The notes beneath the pieces are model-generated. The model saw nothing but the letters and a program-made list of their open reading frames with translations. It did not search any database and was not told where the DNA came from. 64,000 nt of DNA from Flavobacteriales bacterium (lineage in GTDB: Bacteria; Bacteroidota; Bacteroidia; NS11-12g; UBA955), in contig CANMCY010000005.1 of assembly GCA_947496375.1 (NCBI GenBank), positions 1 to 64,000 of the forward strand, written 5' to 3'. This document shows positions 2,796-57,657 of this stretch, piece after piece; the stretch's first letter is position 1; every line of letters begins with the position of its first letter. A program made the translations under genes and the position numbers.

Positions 2796-3686
2796 ATGAA
2801 AAGGCGCGCTTTTTTACATGGATTGTGTGTGCTACCGCTTGGTACTATGGTAAAAGATATAAAGATATTGCAAGAATGGGTTGATGGCACCCCGGCTACA
2901 GTGCGTCAGCCGGTGTTGTTTATTGGTCATGGCAGCCCCATGAATGCCATAGAATCCAATCCTTACACTATGGCTTTACGGGAAATAGGGGCCCGAATTT
3001 TAGAAAGAAACAGGCCCATAGCGGCAATGGTAGTTTCGGCCCATTGGCTCACCCGCGGTACTTTGGTGCAGAAGTCCGCAGCCCCTGAAATAATATATGA
3101 TTTTGGAGGATTCCCGGACGAACTTTACAAGGTGCAGTACCCGGTTGCAGGGAACCCGAATATCGCAACAGATACTGCCTCGCTGATAGCAGGTGCAATG
3201 CCGACAGAAGACTGGGGCCTCGACCATGGGGCATGGGCAGTACTAAAACACCTGTTTCCCAAGGCAGATATTCCCAGTTTCCAAATGAGTATTGACTGGG
3301 GTAAACCCATGTTGCATCACTATGAATTGGCCGGAATGTTATCTGCATTGAGGGAAAGAGGTGTCCTAATCATAGGCAGTGGTAACATCGTGCATAATTT
3401 GGGTGTTAGTATTCCCATGCTGGGCAGCGGTAATCGAAAGCCTTTTGATTGGGCTGTTGAGTTTGATGCATGGGTAGCCAATGCGCTGCAAAACGGCGAT
3501 TATCGAAAATTAACATCATACGAAAGTGCCGGCAAAATGGGCTTACTGTCGGTGCCTTCTCCGGATCATTATATTCCTCTGCTCTACACGCTTGGCTTGG
3601 CTCGCCCGGGTGAAAGCGCCCGAACTTTTTATGAGAGTGTAGAGTATGGCGGTATCAGCATGCGCAGTTTTATTGTTGATTCCTAA
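2796..3686 (+). CDS. 4,5-DOPA-extradiol-dioxygenase-like protein (LigB/YgiD family)
   Basis: Member of the class III extradiol dioxygenase superfamily, whose enzymes open catechol rings using an active-site metal. Family signatures: LFIGHGSPMNAIE (about 46-58), VVSAHWLTRG, DYDFGGFP-like YDFGGFPDELY, LDHGAWAVL and GSGNIVHNL; the conserved His residues in these are the metal and catalytic ligands of the family. It starts MKRRAFLHGLCVLP, which resembles a Tat signal (RRxFL plus a short hydrophobic stretch), as often seen in Bacteroidota homologues, so it may be exported. 296 residues. Monocistronic behind an exact promoter. The natural substrate is unknown; activity on L-DOPA is known for E. coli YgiD only. 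Confidence 0.88.
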   Translation: MKRRAFLHGLCVLPLGTMVKDIKILQEWVDGTPATVRQPVLFIGHGSPMNAIESNPYTMALREIGARILERNRPIAAMVVSAHWLTRGTLVQKSAAPEIIYDFGGFPDELYKVQYPVAGNPNIATDTASLIAGAMPTEDWGLDHGAWAVLKHLFPKADIPSFQMSIDWGKPMLHHYELAGMLSALRERGVLIIGSGNIVHNLGVSIPMLGSGNRKPFDWAVEFDAWVANALQNGDYRKLTSYESAGKMGLLSVPSPDHYIPLLYTLGLARPGESARTFYESVEYGGISMRSFIVDS

Positions 3687-5169: not shown

Positions 5170-6444
5170 ATGACCGACATCAGCAGCAAGGGAGCTCCTC
5201 AGTATAATCCGCTGGAGAGCATGATGAGCCGATTTAATGAGGCAGTGAATATTTTAGGTTTAGATAATCATTTTGCCAATCTGTTAAAAGTTCCGGATAA
5301 GGCCGTTATTGTGAATATTCCGGTAACAATGGATGACGGTACAATTCAGGTTTATGAAGGATACAGGGTTGTGCACAGCGTGCATCTGGGGCCCAGCAAG
5401 GGAGGAATCCGCTACAGTATGGATGTGCACCTTGACGAGGTAAAAGCCCTCGCTGCCTGGATGACATGGAAATGTGCTGTGGTTAATATTCCCTATGGCG
5501 GTGCCAAGGGTGGCATTAAGTGCGACCCACGCAACATGAGCAAAGGAGAACTGGAACGCCTGACACGTGGTTATACCCTGGCCATGAAGGATGTTTTTGG
5601 TGAAGATAAAGATATTCCTGCGCCCGACATGGGCACCGGTCAACAGGAAATGGCCTGGATATTGGATGAATTTAGCAAAATTCGTGGCCAAAACAGCTGG
5701 GGTGTAGTAACAGGGAAGCCACTGGTACTGGGCGGTAGTCAGGGTAGGGTAGAAGCTACCGGCCGCGGTGTAATGGTAAGTACCCGCAGTGCACTGGCCA
5801 AGCTGGGCATCAAACCCACAGATGCATCCTGCGTTGTGCAGGGATTTGGCAATGTAGGAAGTATCTCGGCCAAACTGATAGCTAAGCTCGGAGTGAAAAT
5901 TGTAGGCATTTCCGATATCAGCGGTGGGTATCACAATCCCAATGGCATAGATGTAGAAGAGGCCATGGCATACGTAGCCAACAGCCCAACCCGCAGTCTG
6001 GAAGGGTATACTGGCGGAAGCAAAGTTTCAAATGCTGAATTGCTTACCCTGCCCTGTGATGTGCTGGTGCCTGCTGCCATGGAAGATCAGATAACAGCGG
6101 AGAATGCTGCAGATATAAAAGCCAGACTGATTGTAGAAGGTGCCAATGGTCCTACCACAGCAGATGCTGACCCTATTCTTAACGCCAAAGGCGTGCTGGT
6201 AGTGCCGGATATTCTGGCCAATGCCGGAGGCGTGACTGTGAGCTATTTTGAATGGGTACAAAACCGCCTTGGATACTACTGGACAGAAGAACGGGTGCAT
6301 CGCCGTGCAGACAGGGCCATGAAAATGGCTTTTGATAATGTGTATGCCGCATCAGAAAAATATAAAGTGAACATGCGCATTGCGGCCTACGTGGTGGCCA
6401 TTGATAAAGTAGCCAGTACCCTCAAACTGAGAGGTTCCTTCTAA
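5170..6444 (+). CDS. glutamate dehydrogenase (Glu/Leu/Phe/Val family)
   Basis: Interconverts glutamate and 2-oxoglutarate plus ammonia, using NAD(P). The 424 residues fit the short hexameric class. The substrate-binding and catalytic region reads VPYGGAKGGIKCDP-like (about 106-117, with the conserved Lys of GGAKGG), and the cofactor domain has VVQGFGNVGS (about 222-231). The C-terminus ANAGGVTVSYFEWVQN is diagnostic of the glutamate-specific branch. Nine bases separate it from the phosphatidylserine decarboxylase gene, so the two are probably co-transcribed. NAD versus NADP preference cannot be read reliably. Confidence 0.92.
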   Translation: MTDISSKGAPQYNPLESMMSRFNEAVNILGLDNHFANLLKVPDKAVIVNIPVTMDDGTIQVYEGYRVVHSVHLGPSKGGIRYSMDVHLDEVKALAAWMTWKCAVVNIPYGGAKGGIKCDPRNMSKGELERLTRGYTLAMKDVFGEDKDIPAPDMGTGQQEMAWILDEFSKIRGQNSWGVVTGKPLVLGGSQGRVEATGRGVMVSTRSALAKLGIKPTDASCVVQGFGNVGSISAKLIAKLGVKIVGISDISGGYHNPNGIDVEEAMAYVANSPTRSLEGYTGGSKVSNAELLTLPCDVLVPAAMEDQITAENAADIKARLIVEGANGPTTADADPILNAKGVLVVPDILANAGGVTVSYFEWVQNRLGYYWTEERVHRRADRAMKMAFDNVYAASEKYKVNMRIAAYVVAIDKVASTLKLRGSF

Positions 6445-52571: not shown

Positions 52572-52767
52572 TTGTTTATGTCGCACCTACGGCGCTGTGA
52601 AAACGAAAACTGCTGTTTTCTAGTAATATGCCGCGCCGCTGGCGCTGAGGGGTCGTTATGAGGATGTGTTATTAATATATCGCCCCTACGGGGCTACTGC
52701 ACCCCGCTTTTCGGAAATACAAACCTTTCACTTACCGGGCAGCGATGGGTACTAGCTCCGTAGGAGC

Positions 52768-52788: not shown

Positions 52789-52894
52789 ATCAGGGTTACC
52801 ACGAGCGCCGTAGGTGCGACATAAGACATTGAGACCCATCATAGCAGGATTGTTATGCCGGACCTGCTGTGCTGAGGCAGTGTTACCGGGAAGT

Positions 52895-53016: not shown

Positions 53017-54402
53017 TTACAAATGGATGCACTCATCATACGCCTGGGCCACTGCTTCCATCACCGCTTCGCTCATGGTAGGGTGGGGGTGCACACTCTT
53101 TATGATTTCGTGGCCTGTGGTTTCCAGGTTGCGCGCAACTACCGCTTCAATAATCATATCGGTAACGCCTTCGCCCACCATGTGGCAACCCAGCCATTCA
53201 CCGTATTTCTTATCAAAAATCACTTTAACAAATCCTTCTTTGTGTCCGCCGGCACTAGCTTTTCCGCTGGCGCTGAATGGGAACTTGCCCACACGGATAT
53301 CATATCCTTTTTCCTTCGCCTGCGCTTCGGTTAAGCCCACGCTGGCTACCTCCGGATGGGTATAGGTACAGCCGGGGATATTGCCGTAGTTTAGAGGATC
53401 GGTATGTGTGCCGCAGATGTGCTCTACGCAAATGATGCCTTCAGCACTGGCAACGTGTGCCAAAGCAGGTCCGGGAACGATATCGCCGATGGCGTATACG
53501 CCGGGAACGCTGGTTTGGTAGTATTCATCCACCATTACTTTACCCTTATCGGTTTTAACTCCCATTTCTTCGAGACCCAGATTTTCCAGGTTGGTTTGCA
53601 CACCGGCTGCACTTAGCACATTGTCAACTTCAAATGTTTGTTCACCGGTTTTGGTTTTTACGGTTACAACACAACGCTCGCCTTTGATTTCAACCTTTTC
53701 AACGCTACTTTCGGTTAAAATTTCAATGCCACGCTTTTTGTAGGTCATAGACATGGTTTTGCTTACCTCTTCATCCTCAATAGGTAGAATGCGGGGCATA
53801 AACTCCACGATGGTTACTTTGGTTCCGATGGTGTGGTAGAAATAGGCAAACTCCATACCGATGGCACCGCTACCAATGATGAGCAATTCCTTGGGCTGCT
53901 TTGGCATTACCATGGCTTCGCGGTATCCCAATACACGGGTGCCATCTATTTTGATGTTTGGCAATTCGCGGCTGCGGGCGCCTGTAGCCAATATAATATG
54001 GTCTGCTTCAACCGTTTCGGTTTTGCCATCGGCGGTAACGGCAATTTTACCTTTTCCTGCCAGTTTGCCGGCACCTTTAATCACGGTAATTTTGTTCTTC
54101 TTCATCAAGAACTCCACGCCCTTACTCATATTGCCGGCCACACCGCGGCTGCGCTGAACCATGCCTTCAAAATCGGCCTGGTGCGAAGAAACGGTAATTC
54201 CGTAATCCTTGGCGTGATTGATATAGTCAAATACCTGAGCACTTTTCAGCAATGCCTTGGTGGGAATACATCCCCAGTTCAGGCATACGCCGCCCAATTC
54301 TGATTTTTCAATAATGGCAACACTCTTGCCAAGCTGAGAGGCGCGGATGGCTGCTACATAACCGCCGGGTCCGCTGCCGATAACTGCAATGTCAAATTTC
54401 AT
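53017..54402 (-). CDS. lpd: dihydrolipoyl dehydrogenase (E3)
   Basis: FAD enzyme that reoxidises dihydrolipoamide in pyruvate, 2-oxoglutarate, branched-chain and glycine complexes. 461 residues from ATG 54402; an upstream in-frame start lies 7 codons earlier and is less like the family. FAD motif GSGPGGYVAAIRA (about 9-21), redox disulfide GGVCLNWGCIPTKAL (about 37-51), NAD motif GSGAIGMEFA, AIGDI and the C-terminal HPHPTMSEAV with the catalytic His-Glu pair. Genes for the E1 and E2 partners are not in the window. Exact -7 box upstream. Confidence 0.96.
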   Translation of the reverse strand: MKFDIAVIGSGPGGYVAAIRASQLGKSVAIIEKSELGGVCLNWGCIPTKALLKSAQVFDYINHAKDYGITVSSHQADFEGMVQRSRGVAGNMSKGVEFLMKKNKITVIKGAGKLAGKGKIAVTADGKTETVEADHIILATGARSRELPNIKIDGTRVLGYREAMVMPKQPKELLIIGSGAIGMEFAYFYHTIGTKVTIVEFMPRILPIEDEEVSKTMSMTYKKRGIEILTESSVEKVEIKGERCVVTVKTKTGEQTFEVDNVLSAAGVQTNLENLGLEEMGVKTDKGKVMVDEYYQTSVPGVYAIGDIVPGPALAHVASAEGIICVEHICGTHTDPLNYGNIPGCTYTHPEVASVGLTEAQAKEKGYDIRVGKFPFSASGKASAGGHKEGFVKVIFDKKYGEWLGCHMVGEGVTDMIIEAVVARNLETTGHEIIKSVHPHPTMSEAVMEAVAQAYDECIHL

Positions 54403-54420
54403 GAGATGGGTATATGGCTG

Positions 54421-54428
54421 CAAAAATA
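54421..54428 (-). promoter_or_regulatory. -7 promoter element TATTTTTG before lpd
   Basis: Exact TAnnTTTG on the minus strand, ending 18 nt before the lpd ATG. No clean TTG at the expected -33 distance. Confidence 0.55.
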
Positions 54429-54484
54429 AGGGAAATTGTTTTTTTCATTCCGGATTTCTGAATATCCTTTTATGATGTTTATAC

Positions 54485-54546
54485 AAAAAACGAGACCCGG
54501 CCGACAGGGATACCCTCCTTTACCCCTGAAACATAAGCCGGGCCTC
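54485..54546 (-). ncRNA. candidate small structured RNA or terminator-like hairpin upstream of lpd
   Basis: On the minus strand: outer 10-bp stem (54537-54546 with 54492-54501, one A-C mismatch), inner 5-bp stem (54524-54528 with 54505-54509), a 14-nt loop (54510-54523), then a T-run (complement of 54485-54490). A TATCTTTC (one base off the -7 box) lies at the start of the hairpin's upstream side, so transcription could begin at the base of the stem, giving an RNA of about 60 nt that ends in its own terminator. The loop contains AAAGGAGG (54514-54521 complement), a perfect Shine-Dalgarno sequence. It could also be only a terminator blocking read-through toward lpd. Not a known family that I recognise. 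Confidence 0.4.
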
Positions 54547-54667
54547 TATTAGAGAAAGATAAACCAAAGGATCACAGGGCTAAATTAATTGCACTGTTGA
54601 GCCATTAGATTTAAATTTTATGTAAAAGTAGTAGATAAAAATACAAAAAACAAATTATCTTAGCGAA

Positions 54668-55852
54668 ATGAAAGAAAAAATGTCGGAATTGGCCGCTGTG
54701 AAGCAAAAGTTTAAGATTCCTGCCGAGAATAAACTCATTCTTTGCCTGGATGGAGGAGGAATGCGAGGCATTCTGAGTATTCAATTATTAAAAACCTTTG
54801 AAAAAATAGCCAGTATGCCGGCTTATGCCGTATTTGATATGGTATCAGGAACTTCTACAGGGGCGATTATCGCTGCTTTGCTGGCTACAGGGCATACCGC
54901 AGCACAGATTGAGCAGCGCTACAACCTAATGGTTGATGAGGTATTTAGTCCACTTTTTTTGGGTAACCGATTTTTCAATCCCCCGCGTTTTACCAAAAAG
55001 GCCTTCCGCCGCTTTGCGGCAGAAAACTTCCGCGACATTACCCTTAGAGAAGCTACAGCAATGCATGGCACAGACCTCTTAATAACAGCCAAGGATATGG
55101 CTGCAGGTGAAGAGACCTTTTTTACGGCTTTTCAATTATCGGATAATCAATTTTCCGGCACCTATGCCGATGTGCTGCTCAGGGCCGCACTGGAGGCATC
55201 CATGTCTGCCCCAACCTATTTTGCCCCTTTGGAACGCTTTGTTGATGGCGGCACAACCACCTACAACAACCCCTCGAGTGCCGCCATCATCGAGGCGCTG
55301 AACTATAGCGGCAATCCCGGCTATGAATACGGTAAAATTACCGTTATCAGTCTGGGTACAGGCATTTCACCCCAGTTTGTGAGTCTGCCCGAAATCAAAA
55401 ACCCCAAAGGTCCTGATATCGCTTTCTGGCTAAACTGGTTAATGACAGAAATGGGACAGGATGCTTCAGATATGCAAACAGATTTGCTGCGTTCCCCCCG
55501 GTTCAGGGATTTGATCGACTACCGAAGATTTCAAATTTCATTTGACAGACAGGCATTAAGTAAGCTCCCGGATGTCAAATTTACCGCACCCATGCACGGC
55601 TTTGGTTCGTTGCATGAAGTGAGCGATAAAATCTTGTGCGGCATGGATATGTCTGAAACCAAGTTTTACGAATTGGTCAAAATCATTGGTCAGCAGATGG
55701 GACTATACATCGAAAAAAACAACGGATTTACCCGTGATATGGTGCTGAAAAACAAGGTGAGAGATGAGCTTGTTACCGCCCGTGGCGACGTGGCTACCAT
55801 ACTTAAGCAAATGAGCAACCACCAATGGTTGCAGAATCAACCGCTGGATTAA
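54668..55852 (+). CDS. patatin-like phospholipase
   Basis: Acyl hydrolase with the Ser-Asp dyad of patatins. 394 residues; oxyanion loop LCLDGGGMRGILS (about 25-37), nucleophile elbow GTSTG (about 62-66) and the Asp of FVDGGTTTYNNP (about 194-205). No signal peptide, so cytosolic or membrane-associated; it would act on phospholipids or neutral lipids. The C-terminal 120 residues have no recognised domain. It stands alone between the divergent lpd gene and the convergent typA (4-bp overlap, TTAA shared by both stops). Related to, but not shown to be, CapV-type defence effectors. Confidence 0.9.
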   Translation: MKEKMSELAAVKQKFKIPAENKLILCLDGGGMRGILSIQLLKTFEKIASMPAYAVFDMVSGTSTGAIIAALLATGHTAAQIEQRYNLMVDEVFSPLFLGNRFFNPPRFTKKAFRRFAAENFRDITLREATAMHGTDLLITAKDMAAGEETFFTAFQLSDNQFSGTYADVLLRAALEASMSAPTYFAPLERFVDGGTTTYNNPSSAAIIEALNYSGNPGYEYGKITVISLGTGISPQFVSLPEIKNPKGPDIAFWLNWLMTEMGQDASDMQTDLLRSPRFRDLIDYRRFQISFDRQALSKLPDVKFTAPMHGFGSLHEVSDKILCGMDMSETKFYELVKIIGQQMGLYIEKNNGFTRDMVLKNKVRDELVTARGDVATILKQMSNHQWLQNQPLD

Positions 55853-57657
55853 AGGCTTAACGCCTTGTTTGCGGCCCGCTTACGGTCATTTTCATCGAGT
55901 AATATTTTTCGCAGGCGAATACTCTGTGGGGTCACCTCCACAAATTCATCCTCCTGAATATACTCCATTGCTTCCTCCAAGGTAAATTCGGTGGGGGGAG
56001 CGAGAACGGCATTATCATCTTTACCCGCAGCCCGGAAGTTGGTCATTTGTTTGGCTGTACAGATATTCAGAACAAGGTCACCGGGTTTTATGTGTTCACC
56101 AATGATTTGGCCTGTATAAACTTCCACACCGGTGTGTATGAAATAACTGCCCCTGTCTTTGAGTTTGTCCATGCTGTAACCGGTAGAAGTTCCTTTTTCT
56201 TTACTAATCAGAACACCGGAAATGCGGCCGGACATGCTTCCTTTAAACGGCTCATAACCTTTCAGACGGTGGCTCATAATGGCTTCGCCCTGGGTGGCGG
56301 TGAGCATGTTGCTGCGTAACCCCATGAGACCGCGGCTGGGAATTTCAAATTCGATCCTTACCATGTCGCCTTTGGGCAGCATGCTCAGCATTTCGCCCTT
56401 TTTTTGGCTTACCAGTTCTATCACTTTACCGCTGGATACTTCGGGTACATCCACCGTAAGTACCTCAATGGGCTCGCACTGCACACCGTCAATTTCTTTC
56501 ATAATCACCCGCGGTTGTCCAACCTGAAGTTCGTACCCTTCTCTGCGCATGGTTTCTACCAAAATGCCAATATGCAGTACCCCACGACCATATACAATAA
56601 ACTGGTCTGCGCTGCCGGTTTCTTCTACCCGCATGGCCAGGTTTTTTTCGGTTTCCTTCATCAGGCGGTCACGCAAGTGGCGGCTGGTAACAAATTTGCC
56701 TTCCTTGCCAAAAAACGGACTATTATTGATAGAAAACAACATGCTCATGGTGGGTTCATCAATGGAAATAGGAGGCATGCCTTCCGGGTTTTCAAAGTCA
56801 GCAATGGTATCACCGATTTCAAAATTTTCAATGCCGGTTACCGCACAAATGTCACCTGCAATAACCTCGGTGGCTTTGGCCTTGCCCAGTCCATCAAATA
56901 AATAGAGCTCTTTGATGCGGGATTTTTGTATGCTACCGTCTCGTTTTACCAGCGAAACCGGCATGTTTTCTTTCAGTGTGCCGCGATTGAGTCTTCCTAC
57001 GGCAATACGACCTGTATAGTTGCTGTAATCCAGGCTGGTTATCTGCAGCTGGGTAGATCCTTCGGTTACCACGGGCTCCGGAACCACTGTCAGGATGGTG
57101 TCCATGAGAAAGGTAAGGTCCTGGGTAGGGGTTTTCCAGTTGGGGCCAAACCAGCCCTGTTTTCCGCTACCATAAATCGTGGTGAAGTCCAGCTGTTCTT
57201 CCGTAGCACCCAGGTTAAAGAACAGGTCAAAAATATCGTCGTGGGTTTGATCGGGGTCGCAATTCGGTTTATCAACCTTATTGATAACCACAATGGCTTT
57301 TTTACCCAGACTCAGTGCTTTTTGCAATACAAATCGCGTTTGAGGCATGGGCCCTTCAAAGGCATCCACCAGCAGCAATACTCCGTCTGCCATGTTGAGT
57401 ACGCGCTCTACTTCTCCACCAAAATCGGCGTGGCCGGGGGTGTCGATGATGTTGATTTTAGTGCCCTTCCAGTTCACGCTCACGTTCTTGGCAAGAATGG
57501 TGATACCGCGCTCTCGCTCCAGATCGTTGTTGTCGAGAATGAGCTCGCCCACCTCCTGATTTTCTCGAAACAAACTGGCCTGATAAAGCATTTTGTCTAC
57601 AAGTGTGGTTTTTCCGTGGTCTACGTGGGCGATGATGGCGATGTTACGAATGGGCAT
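55849..57657 (-). CDS. typA: ribosome-associated GTPase TypA/BipA
   Basis: Translational GTPase that helps 50S assembly and stress or cold growth. 602 residues, the standard length. G1 [15 protein letters not shown] (about 10-24), [31 protein letters not shown], and the TypA-specific C-terminal region ([31 protein letters not shown]). ATG start at 57657. A TAATTTCGC element like those of secA and purH lies upstream. Confidence 0.96.

Follow-up and report, generated by a model that had tools for sequence, protein, structure and literature searches.

A conserved terminator-like hairpin with an invariant GGAGGGT loop between patatin and lpd genes in one genus of Flavobacteriales: a candidate insulator of lpd

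Background

The stretch of DNA analysed here (called the window; 64,000 bp of contig CANMCY010000005.1, Flavobacteriales assembly GCA_947496375.1) contains a compact hairpin with a Shine-Dalgarno (SD)-like sequence in its loop, a short distance upstream of a flavoprotein gene. In this genome SD sequences are uncommon, GGAGG being found within 25 nt upstream of only 5 of 310 simple ORF calls; what would such a loop do there? The initial annotation proposed a self-terminating RNA of about 60 nt that titrates or probes the free anti-SD sequence of 16S rRNA. The structure that it described is sound, and the genes around it suggest another role.

Structure and strength of the hairpin

The two-tier stem-loop occupies 54492–54546 on the minus strand (outer stem of the GAGGCCCGGC/GCCGGGTCTC type, inner stem CAGGG/CCCTG), as judged by folding with shuffles, covariation and its single copy. 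Its apical loop carries the motif GGAGGGT (54512–54518, minus strand), and a run of six T's (54485–54490, minus strand) in the position of the U-tract of an intrinsic terminator follows immediately, so the element has the stable G+C-rich hairpin and adjoining T-run by which such terminators are recognized. The initial annotation was exact in its coordinates, its two-tier stem and its T-run; the 14-nt loop that it gave holds for the two-tier description but not for the minimum-energy fold, where inner G-U, U-A and A-U pairs form and the loop is 8 nt (AAGGAGGG). The predicted folding energy of a 91-nt minus-strand piece is -32.4 kcal/mol, whereas shuffled sequences average -21.1 ± 2.7 (z = -4.2; none of 200 shuffles as low), and the plus-strand fold is weaker (-21.2 kcal/mol; 4 of 200 shuffles as low). 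The minus-strand, terminator-ended and structurally conserved element with an SD-like loop that had been predicted from the letters is thus supported by fold, T-run and covariation (below). The Rfam scan that the initial annotation recommended gave nothing sensible: Rfam 15 has no family match at gathering score in the whole window, and at E ≤ 10 in 54400–54700 just four eukaryotic snoRNA/scaRNA families appear, far under their cut-offs.

Among the terminator-like hairpins sampled in its own genome this one is unusual. Our survey covered 160 intergenic segments of 30–600 bp in 464 kb of that genome (the window plus 400 kb), bounded by simple ATG-to-stop ORFs of at least 100 amino acids, and found 44 terminator-like hairpins with a median loop of 5 nt. 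The hairpin before lpd is the strongest of these (-30.6, with the runner-up at -21.3), and it is the only one of the 44 with GGAGG in its loop.

Conservation and distribution

It is a single-copy element in its own genome (G000), in which one full match is accompanied by matches of 16 and 14 nt, and an origin as a REP/BIME repeat made by the nearby Y1 transposase was rejected on this ground. A covariance model built from four sequences was used to search three overlapping sets of genomes, 70 from the family, 108 from the order and 395 from the class. In the family and order searches strong matches (72–85 bits) occur only in G000 and three congeners (G036, G038 and G039), all of one genus, and every other match is below 34 bits; in the class draw, which contained G000 and in which none of the other carriers is listed, only G000 exceeds 34 bits. 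The homologues in the three congeners occupy the same place as in G000, so the covarying homologues upstream of lpd that the initial annotation suggested looking for do exist, but no strong match was found elsewhere in the 395 class genomes. Weak relatives may have been lost, because Infernal's stricter filters were used and only part of the first-look candidates were scored. The weak-match loci inspected (31 from the family and order searches and 14 of the 24 other class-draw matches) are mostly ordinary short terminators; none of the 14 contains GGAGG, and among the 31 only L050 does, in its stem. Locus L047 (28.3 bits) was rejected as a relative; it sits at an ORF start. A pattern scan of genome contigs returned at least 118 stretches; among those listed, three reach 72 bits or more under the model (L095 of G038, L135 of G036 and L151 of G039) and the rest score at most 26.2 bits. 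The G036 contig (L135) is filed under Sphingomonadales; by kinship it belongs with this Flavobacteriales genus, and it is probably from a mislabelled MAG.

The hairpin is found in all four genomes that have an assembled start of the neighbouring patatin-like gene (below). This gene was found in five of the 70 family genomes, all of this genus. Presence of the hairpin cannot be judged in the fifth, G034, where the patatin contig begins within the gene and lpd gave no match. In G035 neither lpd nor patatin gave a match. In G037 lpd is present but patatin gave no match, and the contig stops some 240 nt upstream of lpd. A different terminator hairpin precedes lpd in G037, with GGAGGAG near its apex (L233, about 6040–6070, minus strand; the same as L013 near 3000–3030), and this may be a reduced homologue of the GGAGGGT hairpin.

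Conservation statistics come from four sequences only. In these, standard pairs fill 93.3% of the pair cells and 4 of 15 pairs have changed on both sides. Of 500 shuffles, 10 do as well on either measure and 94 on the number of further pair types. The consensus energy is -23.2 kcal/mol for the minus strand and -14.8 for the plus strand, and none of 300 column shuffles comes as low on either; the minus strand is favoured because 8 of 60 pair cells are G-U there (A-C on the plus strand). The four sequences therefore display the structure conservation across species that would mark an autonomous small RNA. Columns are invariant at 26 of 56 positions in the hairpin, 13 of 92 in the stretch before it (as far as the AT-rich block described below), 10 of 49 after it, and 7 of 7 in GGAGGGT; lack of loop conservation, which the initial annotation had said would count against it, is not what is seen. 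Overall conservation of the hairpin is not exceptional, since its per-base alignment score between G000 and G038 (0.49) falls within the 0.39–0.83 of ten compact hairpins among 28 window candidates. It is the loop, rather than overall conservation, that stands out.

Neighbouring genes and promoters

The gene order is typA, a patatin gene on the opposite strand, the hairpin and lpd. The gene at 53020–54402 (minus strand; Pfam Pyr_redox_2 and Pyr_redox_dim) encodes a dihydrolipoamide dehydrogenase-type flavoprotein and is presumably lpd. The patatin-like phospholipase gene (54668–55852, plus strand; PF01734) is followed by a typA/bipA GTPase gene (55849–57657, minus strand; BipA_C), and the 3' ends of the two overlap by 4 bp, as they do in all five genomes that show both ends. 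The hairpin lies on the lpd strand, 85–89 nt before lpd, and typA points at it through the antisense strand of patatin; both statements hold for all four genomes, and the latter arrangement is absent from the initial annotation. Because of the overlap there is no room for a terminator between typA and patatin, and any typA transcript that escapes cutting at its stop codon has to run on into the patatin antisense strand. In all four genomes nothing terminator-like between the typA stop and lpd on the typA strand reaches -25 kcal/mol or lower except the hairpin; weaker sites lie earlier, among them those of G039 (-18.4, -15.8 and -22.2 kcal/mol, the last being the next strongest site before lpd) and G036 (-12.1), so typA transcripts may already stop before the hairpin. 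In several other genera, read by eye, lpd directly follows the C-terminal codons of either typA or a PrfC-like gene. On its other side lpd adjoins an IS200-like Y1 transposase gene (PF01797, 52107–52571), with 21-nt perfect inverted repeats at 52576–52596 and 52804–52824; in G038 the transposase is absent between lpd and the next ORF, which is 63 nt from lpd.

Promoters were scored with a -7 matrix built from this genome. The motif TAnnTTTG, reported as the sigma-A -7 consensus in F. psychrophilum (PMC9723704), is over-represented in front of ORFs: 143 upstream regions contain 49 sites, and their shuffles 10.3 ± 3.3. The best -7 score has a median of 6.8 in real upstream regions, and in shuffled 90-nt sequences its 90% and 95% quantiles are 7.0 and 8.3 bits. 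The lpd gene has a -7 box of the TAnnTTTG type downstream of the hairpin (TATTTTTG, 54421–54428, minus strand), with 14.0 bits here and 12.6–14.9 bits across the four genomes. Very different is the box at the stem base by which the initial annotation placed the RNA 5' end: TATCTTTC (54554–54561, minus strand) is present, but its score is only -0.2 bits in both G000 and G036, and a promoter there was rejected. In G038 and G039 the stem base has -5.6 and -2.1 bits, and these are also the best scores in the 45 nt before the stem; in G000 and G036 the best sites in those 45 nt lie 42 nt upstream, with 5.1 and 1.7 bits. No convincing promoter for a self-contained RNA of about 60 nt is thus found at the stem base in any of the four genomes.

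Next to the start of patatin, alignment and matrix scores also mark a conserved block rich in A and T (54618–54656, not assigned to a strand), which is probably the patatin promoter and possibly also a minus-strand promoter. Its minus-strand -7 match (CTACTTTTACA in G000) scores 6.1 bits in G000, 6.1 in G036, 8.6 in G038 and 6.2 in G039, and an RNA starting there would be about 130–160 nt long; a second minus-strand match, over the patatin start, has 7.6, 9.9, 7.6 and 7.3 bits, respectively. The patatin and lpd promoter regions (54640–54662 and 54427–54449) form a mutual 23-nt inverted repeat with 78% complementarity, and are perhaps two similar promoters facing apart.

Pairing with the 16S rRNA tail

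All 12 of the 16S tails that were read, from 11 genomes of the family (G036 being the sole representative of the genus), keep the anti-SD sequence CCTCCTTT, as the initial annotation had stated for Bacteroidota; a 16S tail was looked for in the window's own assembly and not found. Of these 12 tails (L192–L203), eleven have GGACCACCTCCTTT, not the usual GGATCACCTCCTTT; the exception, L200, is possibly a contaminant. The proteins bS21, bS18 and bS6 are reported to hide the tail in Flavobacterium (PMC9976891), and a titrator or probe would pair through its loop with the free tail on ribosomes that lack bS21. GGAGG is present in all four loops, and the loop-tail duplexes have predicted energies of -12.7, -9.8, -16.1 and -10.7 kcal/mol, where random upstream 15-mers have their 1% quantile at -10.3 (cofold values were left out, as cofold cannot represent loop-tail kissing). 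The rpsU leader forms a duplex of -12.9 in four of seven congeners, and of -6.5, -7.4 and -4.9 in the other three; the leaders (L250, L247, L248 and L251) of G000, G036, G034 and G038 contain AGAAAGTAGGTAGG, an imperfect extended complement of the 16S tail, and those of G035, G037 and G039 have degenerate versions of it. Against such pairing, the fuller complement AAAGGAGG (54514–54521, minus strand) is not conserved, being present only in G000 and G038, while the G and T that follow GGAGG, though invariant, have no pairing partner in the tail; for F. johnsoniae the rpsU effect is reported to require an extended SD (PMC9976891). Anti-SD binding is possible and is not the simplest reading, and we think it very improbable that titration or probing is what the hairpin is for. 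Equally improbable to us is the broader idea that the GGAGGGU loop engages ribosomes with unoccluded anti-SD, or other C-rich RNA, and would couple ribosome state to expression of typA, patatin and lpd in bacteria that mostly shun SD pairing.

Possible roles of the hairpin

From the structure and its likely strand, the T-run, the gene order, the 4-bp overlap, the lpd promoter match, the covariation and the loop conservation, we consider it slightly the better bet that the hairpin is a minus-strand intrinsic terminator that would insulate lpd by ending typA-derived or antisense/divergent RNA ahead of it. Polymerase leaving typA would travel along the patatin antisense strand, or might instead have initiated on the minus strand beside the patatin start; it would be halted at the hairpin, which would form the 3' end of the RNA, and lpd would therefore be driven by its own promoter just downstream. 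This reading is supported because the hairpin is the strongest of the 44 sampled and the only site of its strength before lpd, and because the lpd -7 box lies downstream of it in all four genomes; antisense RNAs arising through imperfect termination are reported in F. psychrophilum (PMC9723704). It is also close to the plain read-through terminator that the initial annotation had named as fatal to its own proposal, given that typA points at the hairpin. What it does not explain is selection on the loop: a plain terminator needs no invariant 7-nt loop motif, no loop of 8–14 nt and no two-tier stem. The invariant loop hints at a second role, be it in stability, protein binding or pairing.

A rival reading is a genus-specific, trans-acting small RNA on the minus strand, about 130–160 nt from the AT block (or about 60 nt from the stem base) and ending at the hairpin, whose GGAGGGU loop would be a seed for CCCUCC-type sites; we regard this as possible, though doubtful. 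The loop is invariant in all four genomes, as few positions from the AT block up to the hairpin are, and the AT block and the patatin start both offer minus-strand -7 matches in all four, but these scores lie within the shuffled range, patatin's own promoter probably takes up part of the AT block, and the RNA would be poorly conserved upstream of the hairpin. A seed-target search around 310 ORF starts found no enrichment of ACCCTCC, which occurs once (0.81 expected from permuted words). Less probable again, and unlikely in our view, is the idea that it attenuates transcription within a long lpd leader read from a distal promoter: the hairpin is indeed on the lpd strand at a nearly constant 85–89 nt before lpd in all four genomes, but the near-consensus lpd -7 box lies downstream of it, no conserved alternative pairing partner was seen and the upstream stretch is poorly conserved.

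The protein CsrA binds GGA in hairpin loops. A CsrA-decoy RNA was nevertheless rejected, as PF02599 has no match in this genome; the control matched in 3 of 14 genomes.

Relation to known systems

Like Rho-independent terminators, the hairpin is G+C-rich, directly precedes a T-run and lies upstream of the next promoter; unlike them, it has a two-tier stem, a larger loop and an invariant GGAGGGT, and is far stronger than the other hairpins sampled. The convergent genes, whose transcripts must overlap, recall the excludon or noncontiguous operon (PMC7154746), although here overlap of transcripts is deduced from the 4-bp gene overlap. The extended SD reported for rpsU of Flavobacteriales (PMC9976891) is likewise purine-rich and able to pair with the 16S tail, but GGAGGGT sits in a hairpin loop, has no start codon after it and keeps only its GGAGG core in all four genomes. 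The independent small RNAs Rfp1-89 reported from F. psychrophilum (PMC9723704) are also short, structured and without coding potential; the RNA upstream of lpd is a predicted one, and the likeness lies in these general features. No title or abstract that we found in the open-licence literature describes a GGAGGGT hairpin upstream of lpd.

If the hairpin is an insulator only, it would be a clear case of a gene inserted between typA and lpd that brought with it a terminator separating neighbouring transcription. If the loop has a partner, it would represent a new small RNA family in uncultured Flavobacteriales, and in a group where SD-like sequences are rare the meaning of such a loop should be easy to test.
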